This document shows positions 429 through 47,028 of a stretch of DNA of 64,000 nt, piece after piece (within the stretch, counting starts at the first letter, position 1; every line of letters begins with the position of its first letter). The position numbers and the translations under genes are program-made. The notes under the pieces are model-generated. The model was given only the letters and a program-made list of their open reading frames with translations, ran no database searches and was not told the DNA's origin. Location: NCBI GenBank assembly GCA_902801205.1, contig CADCHE010000005.1, positions 62,001 through 126,000 on the forward strand. Reading direction: 5' to 3'. Origin of the DNA: an uncultured Bacteroidia bacterium. Its GTDB lineage: Bacteria; Bacteroidota; Bacteroidia; Bacteroidales; UBA932.

Positions 429-579
429 TGTCGCTTGAGCCCCCGGGACGGGAGTGGGGCGACAGGCAGGTTCGCCCGGAAAACCCGTGGCCGCCCGTGG
501 CCTCGTGAACGGGAGGGGCCCGCGCCGACAGGCGTGGGAGGGATGAGCGAAGCGAAGGTTTTCCAGGCGAACCTGCCTG
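429..579 (+). repeat. Structured multi-hairpin intergenic element, copy A
   Basis: This is a GC-rich non-coding block. A leading hairpin pairs 429-434 with 459-464 and carries ACGGGA at 448-453 in its loop. A long outer arm pairs 463-485 with 557-579 (23 positions, one mismatch); 463-464 could join either helix. Inside the arm are a hairpin with stem CCCGT/ACGGG around a GGCCTCGTGA loop, a second hairpin CCCGCGCC-GACA-GGCGTGGG, then the invariant GTGGGAGGGAT and a small GC-GAA-GC turn. Copy B at 40617-40764 shares the junction motifs with different but still paired arms. Strand is assigned arbitrarily as the direction in which GTGGGAGGGAT reads. It sits between a terminator and a promoter. 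Whether it acts as RNA or DNA is unknown. Confidence 0.7.
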
Positions 580-611
580 CCGCAAGAGCCGCTCCCGCCT
601 GTCAAGATACA

Positions 612-40152: not shown

Positions 40153-40539
40153 ATGATCGAACCGGGGATCCAGGGCCGCCGCGAATGGACGGTGACCGAA
40201 GAGATGACGGCAACGCACATCGGCAGCGGGCCGGTGCGGGTATTCGCCACGGCGATGATGATCGCGCTCATGGAGAAGGCCTGCATGAGTTCCGTAGAGC
40301 CCTTCCTGGAAGAAGGGCAGCAGACCGTGGGCACGCATGTGGACGTGTCCCATGTCTCTGCGACGCCGGTCGGGATGAAGGTCTGGAGCGAAAGCACGCT
40401 CGTGGAGGTAGACCGCCGGAAGCTCGTCTTCCGGGTGGCCGCCTATGACGAGAAGGGCCTCATCGGAGAAGGCGTGCACGAGCGTTTCCTCATCGACACC
40501 GCGAAGTTCCTCGCCAAGACCGGTGCGAAGAACGGCTGA
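40153..40539 (+). CDS. FlK-like hot-dog thioesterase
   Basis: This 128-residue single hot-dog protein resembles fluoroacetyl-CoA thioesterase-type enzymes: FATAMMIALMEKACMSSVEPFL (with a conserved Glu), GTHVDVSHVSATPVGMKVW (His) and GLIGEGVHERFLID. The family hydrolyses small acyl-CoAs; fluoroacetyl-CoA itself is unlikely here, and the physiological substrate is unknown. It begins ten bases after gdhA and ends just before a strong terminator. Confidence 0.85.
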   Translation: MIEPGIQGRREWTVTEEMTATHIGSGPVRVFATAMMIALMEKACMSSVEPFLEEGQQTVGTHVDVSHVSATPVGMKVWSESTLVEVDRRKLVFRVAAYDEKGLIGEGVHERFLIDTAKFLAKTGAKNG

Positions 40540-40616: not shown

Positions 40617-40764
40617 CCCGGCCGGAGACGGGAATCTCGGGCCGACGGACCGGGATGGGCTTCGGACGGCGTAGCCGCCCGCGGCTCGTGAGCGGGTGGG
40701 GCCCACAAGCGAAGCGCAGTGGGAGGGATAGCCCCGAAGGGGCGTACCGTCCGAGCCCACCCGG
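40617..40764 (+). repeat. Structured multi-hairpin intergenic element, copy B
   Basis: The second member of the family at 429-579. A leading hairpin (GGCCGGAGA at 40620-40628 with TCTCGGGCC at 40635-40643) contains ACGGGA. The outer arm pairs 40650-40669 with 40747-40764. Inside are hairpin CCGCCCGC/GCGGGTGG around GGCTCGTGA, hairpin CCCAC/GTGGG with an AAGCGAAGCGCA loop, the invariant GTGGGAGGGAT, then AGCCCC-GAA-GGGGC. Compared with copy A, junction motifs are conserved while arms differ yet stay paired. It lies between the terminator and the converging M16 gene. Confidence 0.7.
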
Positions 40765-40774
40765 CCGGGGCGGA

Positions 40775-43681
40775 TCAATACCCGAAGATATCCTCGAGGG
40801 TCAGGAAGGTGACGGGGCCGAGGGTGGAGACGAAGTCCATGTCGAAGTCCTCCGCATCGCCCAGGAAGCCGTAGGCATACGTGCGGCCGGCGATCCACTG
40901 CCGCTGCACCGCCTTGACATCCTCCAGCGTCATGTCCTGCACCTGCTCGAAGACCGCTTTGTTACGGTCCTCCGTCAGCCCGAGGTCCTCCAGGTCGAGC
41001 CAGGCGTACAAGACATCCAGGCCGGTCGTCCGGTTCGTACGCAGGGTGGAGACCAGGCCGGACTTCGCCACCTGGAACGCCTCCTCCGAAGCGGGCATCT
41101 GCTCGATGATCTCGTCGAAGCCCTCCACGGCCGCCTTCAGCTTGTCGTTCTGCGACGCGATGAACGCCGTGAAGATATAGTCGTCATCCTTGTAATCGGG
41201 CGTCCGCAGCAGGGCGGAAGCGGAATAGGCCAGGGCGCGGGCCTCGCGCATCTCCTGGAAGACGATACCGTTCATGCCGGCGCCGAAATACTGGTTGAAC
41301 AGCATCGTGGCAGCATCGTGGCGGACATCGAACTTCTCGCCGCGGTCGGAATACTGCATGTAGTAGAACTGGTTGGCCTTGTAAGGTGCCAGATAGACCG
41401 CCGGCGCGTCGACCCTGCGGTGGACGGGAATCGTCTTCTGCAGGGGCTGCGGGTGCTGCGCGCGGTCATGCACCTTGTCCAGGAGGCCCTCCACCGACGC
41501 CTGGGCCGACGGACCGTAATAGAGGACGTTGTGCTGCTTGTAGTAGAGGTCGCGCACCAGCGAGAGAAGTTCCTCGGAGGTGAGTGCGCGCACCTGGTCG
41601 TCGGTAAGGGTGGTGCGGGCGATGTACTCCGGGCCGTAGGTCAGGTATCGGCTCAGGGCCGCGTAGCAGGAGCGCTGCGAGAGCTTCTCGTCGGCGCGTT
41701 CCTTGAGGATGTCGCGCTTGAGGGAGGCGAGAACCTGCTCGTCGCCGACGGCATGGAGAACCAGGTCCTCCAGGATGCCGAACGCCTCGCCGACATGCTC
41801 GTCCAGGCCGGTGACGGAGAAGTGCGACTGGGTCGCGCCGGCGGTCAGGCGCCAGTTGCAGGCCAGCGCGTACATCTGCGCGGCGATCTGTTCAGCCGTA
41901 CGGGACGGCGTACCGAGGTAACCCAGGTAGCGGAACGCCAGGTTCAGCCGGGGATCCTCCTGCGTGCCGAGGTCATAGGAGCAGCCGAGGGTGGCGATGT
42001 CGTTGATACCGTTGCGTTTGTACAGCAGGCGCACGCCTTCGCCGAGGGCGGCGGTGGAGAGATCCTGCGAAAAATCGAGGAAGACCGGGTCGATCGGCAC
42101 CACTTCTGACTGCTGGATTTCCGTGAGGAAAGCGCTCTGTTTCTGGCGGTTGGTTTCGATGGGCGTGATGGCCGGAGCGGCGATCTTCTCAATGTTCGGA
42201 TCCGGGCCGATGTGCTTGAACGCAGCCACGTAGCTGTCGGCCCCCAGGAACTCGGAGGCCCAATCCGCCACCTGCCGGGCATCCACTTTCTCGAGGCGCT
42301 CCATCTGCAGGGCATCGTCCTTCCAGTCGTGTCCGGCGATGAAGGAGTTGACATACGACATCGCACGGCTGCGGTTCTGCTCCAGCTGCCGCATCCGGCC
42401 CAGCTTGAGGTTGTTGACGGACGCGCGCACAAGGCTGTCACCGAAGTCGCCCTTCCGCAGGCGTTCCACCTCGCCGAGCAGCAAGTCGCGGACCTCCTCC
42501 AGGGTCTGTCCCTCACGCGGGTAGCCGACCATCAGGAATTCCCCGTAGTCGGGACGGGTGTAGTTGAAGGCGTAGAAGTCACCGATTTTCTGCGACTTGA
42601 CCAGGTCGAGGTCGACCAGGCCGGCCTTGCCGTTGTAGAGGACGGCGCTGACGATGTCGCCCACTTCGCTGCGGCGGAAATCCTTCCCGCCCGGCGTCCG
42701 CCAGCCGATCATCACGAATTCCGCGTCGAGTCCGTACACGTCCTTGCGGACAGGCGCCGTCACCGGATCCTCCGGTTCGTATTCCAGCATCTTGATGTCC
42801 GGGTTCGGCTCCCAGTCCCCGAAGTATTTTTCGATGGCAGCCACGAAGGCATCCGGATCGAGGTCGCCGGAAGCACAGATCGCGATGTTGTTGGGCACAT
42901 AGAAGTTGCTCCGGTAGTTCTCGATGTTCACGATCGAAGGGTTCTTCAAGTGCTCCTGCGTGCCCAGGGTGGTCTGCAGCCCGTAGGGATGGCGGGCGAA
43001 CAGCACCGAGTCGATCGCCTCCATCGCCTTGGAGTCATCCTCCGTCAACGACATGTTCTTCTCTTCGTACACCGCTTCCAGTTCCGTGTGGAACCCGCGG
43101 ATCACCGGGTGACGGAAACGGTCGGCCTGGATGCGCGCCCAGTCGTCGACCCGGTTGGCCGGGATGTCCTCCGTATAGACCGTCATGTCGTTGGAAGTGA
43201 ACGCGTTGGTCCCTTCTGCGCCGATGATGGACATCAGTTTGTCATACTCGTTGGGGATGGCGATCTTGGACGCTTCGTAGCTGACCGAGTCGATCCGGTG
43301 ATAGAGCGCCGCGCGCTCCCCTTCGTCCGTCAGGGTGCGGTAGGTCTCGAACAGGGCCCGGATGGTGTCCAGCAGCGGTTTCTCGGCAGCGTAGTCCGAG
43401 GTGCCGAAATGCTCGGTGCCCTTGAACATCAGATGCTCCAGATAATGGGCCAGGCCCGTGGTCTCGTGGGGATCGTTCTTGCTGCCCACGCGGACAGCGA
43501 TGAAGGTCTGCAGGCGGGGCGTTTCCTTGTTGACGCTCATGTACACCTTCAGCCCGTTGTCCAGGGTATAGATCTTCGTGCCGAGCGGGTCGCCCTTCAC
43601 CGTTTCGTACCGGTACTTCCCGCAGGAGACGGCCGCCGTCGCCACCAAGGCGAAGAGGGCCCATGTCAAGATTCGTTTCAT
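40775..43681 (-). CDS. M16-family zinc peptidase lipoprotein (insulinase-like, two-domain)
   Basis: A 968-residue periplasmic or surface lipoprotein with lipobox T-A-A-V-S-C at Cys20. The inverted zinc motif is H79-Y-L-E82-H83 in [18 protein letters not shown], and the distal Glu region is [12 protein letters not shown]. Two tandem M16 halves are present; the second half (from about 520) lacks the metal ligands, as usual. Such enzymes degrade peptides inside a clam-shell chamber. The ATG at 43681 is preferred over 43687 (M-F-M). It converges on repeat copy B. Confidence 0.94.
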
Positions 43682-43708
43682 AAACATTTATGTACTTGTT
43701 TCTTTGGA

Positions 43709-45616: not shown

Positions 45617-46963
45617 CTACAGCCCGAACGCTTCGCGGATCCGCGCGACGTCGTCGAGTTTCTCCCAGCCGAAGAACTGCACCGTCTCTTCCACTTCCTT
45701 TCCGCCGCGGACCAGCTTCATCTTCTTACAGTACGGCTTGCGGCCGAAATGGCCGTAGGCGGCCGTGGGTGCATAGATCGGGTTCTTCAGGGCGAATCGC
45801 TCGACGATGGCGGCTGGGCGCAGGTCGAACAGCTCCTCCGCCTTCCGGGCGATGAACGTGTCGACTTCCGCGGGGGAAAGCCCCTTCAAGGCCTCGCAAT
45901 CGCGGTTCGCCGTCCCGTACGTATCCACGAAGAAGCTGACCGGACGGGCCACGCCGATGGCGTAGGCCACCTGCACGAGCATTTCCTGTGCGACGCCGGC
46001 GGCCACCATGTTCTTGGCGATGTGCCGGGCGGCGTAGGCCGCACTGCGGTCGACCTTCGACGGGTCCTTGCCGGAGAAGCAGCCGCCCCCGTGGGCGCCT
46101 TTCCCGCCGTAGGTATCGACGATGATCTTCCGGCCGGTCAGGCCCGTGTCGCCGTTCGGACCGCCGATCACGAACTTGCCCGTCGGGTTGACATGCAGGA
46201 TGAAATCATCCTGGAACAAGGCGGCGGTCTGCGCCGGGAGGGCCGCTTTCACCCGGGGCAGGAGGATCTTCCGGACGTCGCGCTCGATCTGCGCGCGCAT
46301 CGCCGCGTCGGCCTCCTCCGCGCCGAGGCGCGCCACGGCTTCCGCATAGGTGCGGACGCCCGTTTCCGGCGCCGCGAATTCATCGTGCTGGGTGGAGAGG
46401 ACGATCGTATGGATGCGCACCGGGCGGTGGTTGCCGTCGTACTCGACGGTGTACTGGGACTTGGCGTCGGGGCGCAGGTAAGGCATGAGCTGCGGTTCGT
46501 TGTGGCGGATGTCGGCCAGGATGCGGAGCGTCAGGTGCGACAGGTACAGCGGCAGGGGCATGTAGTCTTCCGTATCGCGGCAGGCATAGCCGAACATCAT
46601 GCCCTGGTCGCCGGCGCCCTGGTCCTCGGGCTTTTCGCGGCGGACGCCGCGGCCGATGTCGCCGCTCTGCTCGTGGATGGCGGAAAGCACACCGCACGAA
46701 TTGCCGTCGAACATGTATTCCGCCTTGTCGTAGCCGATACGCTTGATGGTGTCGCGCACGACGGTCTGGATGTCGACATAGGCATCTTCCGTGCTGACTT
46801 CGCCGCCGACGACCACCAGTCCGGTGGAGCAGAAGGTTTCACAGGCAACGTGTGCGTCAGGGTCCTGGCGGAGGAATTCGTCAAGGATGGCGTCTGAGAT
46901 CTGGTCGGCCACTTTGTCCGGGTGGCCCTCGGAAACGGATTCCGAAGTAAAGAGGTAGTTCAT
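45617..46963 (-). CDS. metK: S-adenosylmethionine synthetase
   Basis: This 448-residue enzyme makes SAM from ATP and methionine. Signatures are [32 protein letters not shown] and [25 protein letters not shown]. It is somewhat longer than E. coli MetK, with an insertion near residues 195-260 ([20 protein letters not shown]...) often seen in Bacteroidota. A SAM-II-type riboswitch directly abuts its start codon, implying feedback by its product. The gene is transcribed away from the phosphoesterase gene. Confidence 0.97.
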
Positions 46964-47015
46964 ATTTTTAGCATTTTTTTAGACTGAGGTTGCAAGCAGG
47001 CAAATCCATCCTCAG
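46964..47015 (-). ncRNA. SAM-II (SAM-alpha) type riboswitch in the metK leader
   Basis: On the minus strand a 6-bp P1 stem CTGAGG/CCTCAG (47010-47015 with 46984-46989) encloses a loop with GGATTTGCC and CTTGCAA. It is followed by TCTAAAAAAAT and GCTAAAAAT. The invariant SAM-II bases (GATTTGCC, GCTTGCA before P1 closes, GCTAAAA) occur in the right order, and the 11-base spacing from P1 to GCTAAAA equals my recollection of the crystallised SAM-II RNA. The element ends immediately before the metK ATG. SAM-II aptamers sequester the ribosome site when SAM is bound; here there is no Shine-Dalgarno sequence to hide, so the start codon itself would be masked. Confidence 0.88.
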
Positions 47016-47028
47016 ATGTTAGCGGGGG

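Follow-up and report, generated by a model that had tools for sequence, protein, structure and literature searches.

A dispersed palindromic repeat with a covarying core and locus-specific arms in a gut Bacteroidales genus

The DNA analysed here (the window) is a 64,000-nucleotide stretch of an uncultured Bacteroidia genome and contains two copies of a structured repeat, copies A and B. Copy A lies between two minus-strand ORFs, one at 673-1737 and one ending near 380, and copy B is flanked by a plus-strand ORF that ends at 40539 and by a minus-strand ORF at 40775-43687. Reading the sequence directly, both copies were found where the initial annotation had placed them, and in RNA folding (z = -4.62 for A and -4.26 for B) each copy folded better than 200 of 200 dinucleotide shuffles. 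When shorter stretches were folded with DNA parameters, copy B reached z = -3.54 with 1 of 200 shuffles as good, and copy A was unexceptional (z = -1.16; 27 of 200 shuffles as good). In the list below, core coordinates are covariance model (CM) match positions converted to the window, and arms were read off the sequence.

461..485, plus strand: copy A, 5' arm of the long outer stem (sequence read; paired with 557-581 in the RNA fold)
486..544, plus strand: copy A, conserved core (best CM match in the genome; core helices covary)
545..556, plus strand: copy A, short GAGCGAAGCGAA stretch, the optional last hairpin (sequence read)
557..581, plus strand: copy A, 3' arm of the outer stem (sequence read; paired in the RNA fold)
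40650..40669, plus strand: copy B, 5' arm (sequence read; paired in RNA and DNA-parameter folds)
40670..40729, plus strand: copy B, conserved core of the CGTAGCC subfamily (CM match, 75.1 bits, E = 7.4e-13)
40730..40746, plus strand: copy B, last hairpin AGCCCCGAAGGGGCGTA (sequence read; paired in RNA and DNA-parameter folds)
40747..40768, plus strand: copy B, 3' arm (sequence read; paired in RNA and DNA-parameter folds)

The core of copy A consists of the hairpin CGTGGCC/GGCCTCG, the loop CCCGT pairing with ACGGG, the hairpin CCCGCGCC/GGCGTGGG and AGGGAT. It has the top CM score in the genome (85.8 bits, E = 3.6e-15), a value that is not independent as copy A is one of the sequences from which the model was built; copy B is also among them. 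A leading ACGGGA hairpin, previously listed as a block common to the two copies, was not seen in the other copies printed and looks like chance. No Rfam family matched copy A or B at gathering score in a scan of the window, nor any of 16 further element loci, and at E ≤ 10 the matches were weak and unrelated. The window does contain a SAM-II riboswitch at 46958-47019 on the minus strand (58.5 bits, gathering score 44).

Across the 2.47-Mb genome there are 17 occurrences of the motif GTGGGAGGGAT and 0 of its reversed form. A core covariance model (R1) built from 12 copies gave 24 matches in this genome at E ≤ 0.1, the weakest at 0.005 and some of them truncated. With stricter filters, which may miss weak matches, R1 found the element in 30 of 36 relatives of the same genus, in none of 24 genomes from the order's other families and, at E ≤ 1e-4, in 0 of 246 other genomes drawn from the phylum. 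The covariance-model search proposed in the initial annotation has therefore turned up further copies in both the genome and the genus, and its suggestion of an interspersed element or mobile palindrome is supported in the main part. Among named genomes the exact core pattern occurs in at least 116 stretches, and all 116 listed belong to Bacteroidales or Bacteroidia metagenome bins, including Candidatus Cryptobacteroides and Candidatus Merdivivens; the genomes compared are metagenome assemblies. No gene is recognisable within the element, and the exact core pattern was found in 0 viral contigs. A phage origin and a plasmid origin were each rejected on one queried copy, copy B having no match in a phage collection and copy A none in a plasmid collection. 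No earlier description of the repeat was present among the literature matches listed.

A recently spread subfamily in the same genome (L002, L005, L006, L014, L015, L017 and L028) is adjoined by terminator-like hairpins, of a AAGGCGACTAATAAGTGATTATTGGTCG...TTTTTTT type and one other. Several of its copies end early near GCGAAGCG. A second long palindrome with CGCTGACCG-like ends adjoins a RAYT-like Y1 gene at about 909-1842 of L018 (G000:C8) and also stands beside three element copies (L010, L013 and L016).

Between its long arms the element has a core of about 58 nt, with a range of 51-103 nt, arms excluded, in the set of copies whose arms were compared. Helix 1 is the hairpin X1X2-T-RGCC/GGCY-N-X2'X1', helix 2 is formed by the hairpin loop CCCGY and a downstream RCGGG, and a third hairpin (CCCRC..GYGGG) and an optional fourth are variable in length. 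Covariation was assessed on 39 distinct 32-nt core segments, a set without 9 of the 47 distinct segments (lengths 31, 33 or 42) and with the off-pattern L072 added by hand. Here, 98.1% of 429 cells were paired in the two core helices, 66 cells were changed on both sides versus 19.0 in shuffles, and the covariation score was 0.421 versus 0.170 in shuffles (0 of 500 as high), with slid versions reaching at most 0.142. The covariation test that the initial annotation had called for is thus positive, although further pair types (13 versus 12.5 in shuffles; 250 of 500) did not stand out and the pairs changed on both sides (6 versus 4.4; 8 of 500) were counted as not standing out.

Helix 1 starts with CG, CA, CC, TC or TG and correspondingly ends with CG, TG, GG, GA or CA. 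The inner-stem difference between A and B, CCCGT/ACGGG versus CCCGC/GCGGG, had been read as compensatory, and the loop stem indeed recurs in other copies as CCCAT/ATGGG, CCCAC/GTGGG and CCCTC/GAGGG. An A-T versus G-C swap in the core was also seen at the matched site of L099 and L141. As the loop of the CGTGGCC/GGCCACG-type helix provides one strand of the CCCGT/ACGGG stem, the core could be pseudoknot-like or comprise two alternative helices, and the three linker bases beside a seven-pair stem are sterically tight, so the two helices may be alternatives. Of the multi-branched fold proposed earlier, the structured and covarying core stands, but its architecture is that of a pseudoknot or of alternative helices, and the CGTGGCC/GGCCACG-type helix had been overlooked. 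In the core of L041, GCCGCCCGTG is directly duplicated inside the hairpin.

Among 174 distinct copies, the outer arms of 166 are complementary (score ≥ 24; median reach, 29 nt), versus 3 of 174 when the 3' arm was taken from another copy, so that arms which differ yet pair, as described for A and B, are the rule among the copies. They are locus-specific: L078 and L079, from one genome, have an identical core and last hairpin and different arms. Arm mismatches read on the core strand are more often G.U (143) than A.C (75; binomial p = 5e-6), and G.U-rich copies outnumber A.C-rich ones by 69 to 24 (p = 3e-6), both p-values being optimistic because the copies are related. Within three genomes the G.U:A.C counts were 22:13 in copies antisense to a gene, 9:4 in sense copies and 24:6 in the rest. 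The excess may mean that the element acts as one particular single strand, perhaps as RNA.

Copies A and B themselves lie between ORFs, and in close relatives the element is also inserted in frame within genes, which, like the inverted cores described below and the likeness to Rickettsia palindromic elements (RPEs), goes beyond the reading of the initial annotation. From the close genomes G175, G176 and G177, where many of the copies are genic, 61 of 65 matches were fetched. A codon model was applied to all sets, in which 168 copies were classifiable and 11 of 179 too short. Its strict threshold, which missed for example murE, left 22 of the 168 in which the coding sequences flanking the element agree in strand and frame, and the reading frame is open through the element in all 22. 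The remaining copies had the same strand in another frame (7), opposed frames (4), coding sequence on one side (59) or on neither (76). Among the 29 stretches whose translation was shown, 25 were stop-free and four contained stops, one of the four being the trmB copy L319, whose in-frame stop is located downstream of the element. All 14 interrupted open frames tested matched known families, namely murE, dapF, truB, ribF (two loci), trmB, uvrA, metG, murB, YggS, tilS, Radical_SAM_N, Thump_like and Pterin_bind, where the UvrA and MetG frames are cut by stretch ends and fall below full-length cut-offs, the MetG C-terminal domain is above its own cut-off, and RibF passes via Pfam alone. Within these housekeeping genes the in-frame element is found in both orientations. 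In L068 (G023), the copy at 1827-1930 lies within a long frame with a TrmB-like start, beside low-complexity repeats of the same frame.

The same gene position often has different content in related genomes. The murE loop reads CEHIPEGVDTTGIEVEVVEN in L361, a relative free of the element; G176, G177 (inverted core, other arms) and G252 have the element there, and G149 (L337) has an unrelated repeat instead. In metG, the element is present in G175, a short GC palindrome in G177, G178 and G180, a hybrid in G176 and other insertions in G149 and G179. In murB, one form occurs in G177, another of opposite orientation in G176 and G149, and none in G178, G179 and G180. The repeat in L337 (murE) and L373 (metG) is of a different, GTCATCCTGAG...GAACGAAG type, read as CHPEERSD and in frame at element sites, and short GC palindromes (CATCCCCGGCCCCGACCGGGGATC; GATTCCCGGTCGGGGCCGGGAATGACGG) occupy relatives' element sites in L366, L368, L371 (metG), L420, L421 and L427.

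Twenty stretches, picked for contiguous matches with split ones excluded, were read for further sites, and of the 12 further sites the element was absent from the counterparts at nine and replaced by another palindrome in at least one relative at two. At site 55 a relative retains TTCCGGAGGCCTCCGGAA, a perfect 18-bp palindrome exactly at the insertion place, as expected from deletion of a hairpin tip. The clearest gains are sites 29 and 34 in G176. G176 carries the element at both. At site 29, four of the five other genomes searched are empty and one shows a 61-base gap, and at site 34 all five others are contiguous; four empty counterparts at site 29 and one at site 34 were read as sequence. 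Sites 0, 30, 38, 40, 46 and 56 have split matches in other genomes, so that either gain or loss may have occurred there. Short flanking direct repeats were seen by eye at murB (GTGT), site 38 (AAGCGA) and site 30 (TGAAA), with none clear at site 56, and no constant target-site duplication was seen by eye at the sites read. For copy B, the nearest neighbouring-gene identity in relatives is 74%, too distant for an empty-site comparison.

Opposite core orientation was observed in 14 of 38 matched pairs, which are non-independent, and in 10 of the 24 pairs with a flank identity of at least 85%. In the latter set mean identities were 90.7% for flanks, 82.7% for cores and 76.6% for the 24-nt arm (random arms, 47.1%). 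In L152/L153 versus L192 the core is identical but reversed and the arms are 92-96% identical, which is a true in-place inversion. At murE and dapF, where arms and core are very different, a separate insertion or a replacement at a tolerant site is as likely. The core is conserved at the long-shared sites L057/L110/L140, whose flanks are 80-86% identical, and this would also fit a host function. The idea that arms are, as a general rule, wholly copied from the target was rejected, since neither site 29 nor site 34 shows the 24-25 bp arms in the empty relatives. Target copying may still play a partial role in arm formation, as the outermost 8 bases of one murB arm are native sequence that recurs in inverted form on the opposite side.

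We consider it likely that A and B are copies of a non-autonomous selfish palindromic element of about 120-150 bp that works like RPEs. Sites that are occupied in one genome but vacant in close relatives speak for its movement. The element would have multiplied across genomes of one gut Bacteroidales genus, and would persist between genes and, in some species, inside genes tolerating a short extra in-frame peptide, the genic copies presumably being simply transcribed and translated along with the host gene. It would be selfish rather than useful, its folded single strand bearing the core may be recognised by an enzyme acting in trans, and arm complementarity may be kept by template switching or arm-arm conversion plus selection.

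More tentatively, and with less confidence, the repeat might represent a new class of tiny mobile elements, mobilised in the form of a folded single strand that could be RNA. The trans-acting enzyme would then recognise a compact pseudoknot-like core, and the long arms would be rebuilt or altered during or following every insertion, in part with adjacent sequence as the template, which would give every copy a private palindrome. The core could flip between the arms, and the element may exit via hairpin-tip deletion. Hints in this direction are the strand-specific G.U excess irrespective of gene direction, the identical cores with unrelated arms in L078/L079, the faster change of arms than of flanks at matched sites, the inverted 8 native bases in murB and the perfect palindrome at site 55.

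Other explanations are less likely. That the repeat is a multi-copy structured RNA with a host function (e.g., in mRNA 3' ends, processing or stability), under site-wise selection and with dispersal secondary, is unlikely. The strong covariation of the core, also within matched sites such as L099/L141, and the location of many set-1 copies outside recognisable coding sequence favour such an RNA, and the preference for G.U over A.C fits an RNA of the core strand, but the G.U excess is found whether the core is antisense or sense to the gene and is thus independent of the host mRNA. Moreover, both orientations occur at the same site, a cis RNA role is hard to see for in-frame copies lying both ways in housekeeping genes, and many sites lack a copy in close relatives.

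A REP/BIME-type repeat moved by a RAYT (HUH, tyrosine) transposase would account for the hairpin-rich structure, high copy number and mainly non-coding placement, and RAYT-like (Y1_Tnp) genes are found more often in genomes of the genus that bear the element (25 of 31) than in those that lack it (2 of 6). We nevertheless find this origin improbable. The genome of the window has one RAYT-like gene only, a weak Y1_Tnp match; no R1 match at E ≤ 1 lay near any of 21 RAYT-like loci (20 from the genus and this one), several stretches of which ended at contig ends, and of the 14 loci in which the frame was recognised, 9 have other repeats on their flanks. Six of the 31 element-bearing genomes are without a Y1_Tnp match, including G013, G022 and G030, which are 95-97% complete and carry 11, 3 and 3 element copies. 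The REP/RAYT comparison proposed in the initial annotation therefore yields no linkage to RAYTs. In A and B an alternative core hairpin does have GT[AG]G at its base, as GTGG or GTAG, but in other copies this motif is replaced by ATGG, CTGG or GTTG-type variants and its pairing partner changes too. Least probable, to the point of being nearly discounted, is a small intron-like or translationally bypassed element within genes: the location in essential genes and the structured, possibly pseudoknotted core would suit it, but removal or bypass would not need a frame that is open in 22 of 22 copies and in both orientations.

If the repeat is a selfish element of the RPE kind, in-frame palindromes in proteins, until now a Rickettsia curiosity, extend to a large and common gut genus, whose many close genomes offer a natural before-and-after comparison in pairs of a gene that has the insert in one genome and lacks it in another. 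Such pairs make movement, loss, inversion and protein effects testable. Annotators should be aware that several essential proteins in these genomes would contain a presumably selfish peptide some 40 residues long, and that the same protein loops take up unrelated palindromes in sister species.

RPE-related elements also occur in Wolbachia. In the available parts of the published accounts, RPEs are described as palindromic elements of about 150 bp with several dozen copies per genome and no known transposase, many of them in frame in protein genes of unrelated function (PMC10969869, PMC3733652, PMC6649704, PMC2635572). The present element shares with them a palindromic structure of about 100-150 bp, a dispersed multi-copy occurrence and in-frame insertion in genes of unrelated function, a likeness drawn from descriptions and not from sequence comparison. 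It differs in belonging to another phylum, in having a core with two covarying helices and in having inverted cores at matching sites, and its arms vary between copies yet remain paired, whereas RPEs are said, in the part of PMC6649704 available, to lose repeat identity with time.

REPs, given as 21-65 nt long in the available part of PMC6006769 (REP/RAYT background also in that of PMC3733652), are likewise dispersed hairpin repeats with possible single-stranded DNA action, but the present element is larger, does not conserve the GT[AG]G guide family-wide and is not linked to a RAYT. With MITEs it has in common being short, non-autonomous, palindromic and mobile; unlike them, it has no terminal inverted repeat common to its copies, as the swapped arms demonstrate, and a constant target duplication was not seen by eye. 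The coding palindromes of Nematomorpha mitochondria are, in the available part of PMC6649704, inverted repeats in translated genes whose arms change in concert and for which template switching was proposed; as described there, both arms encode conserved native protein and no common core is involved, whereas here a dispersed element with a core is inserted. We hold that the repeat is a new family of the RPE kind, with a covarying core, private arms and flipping as its own traits.
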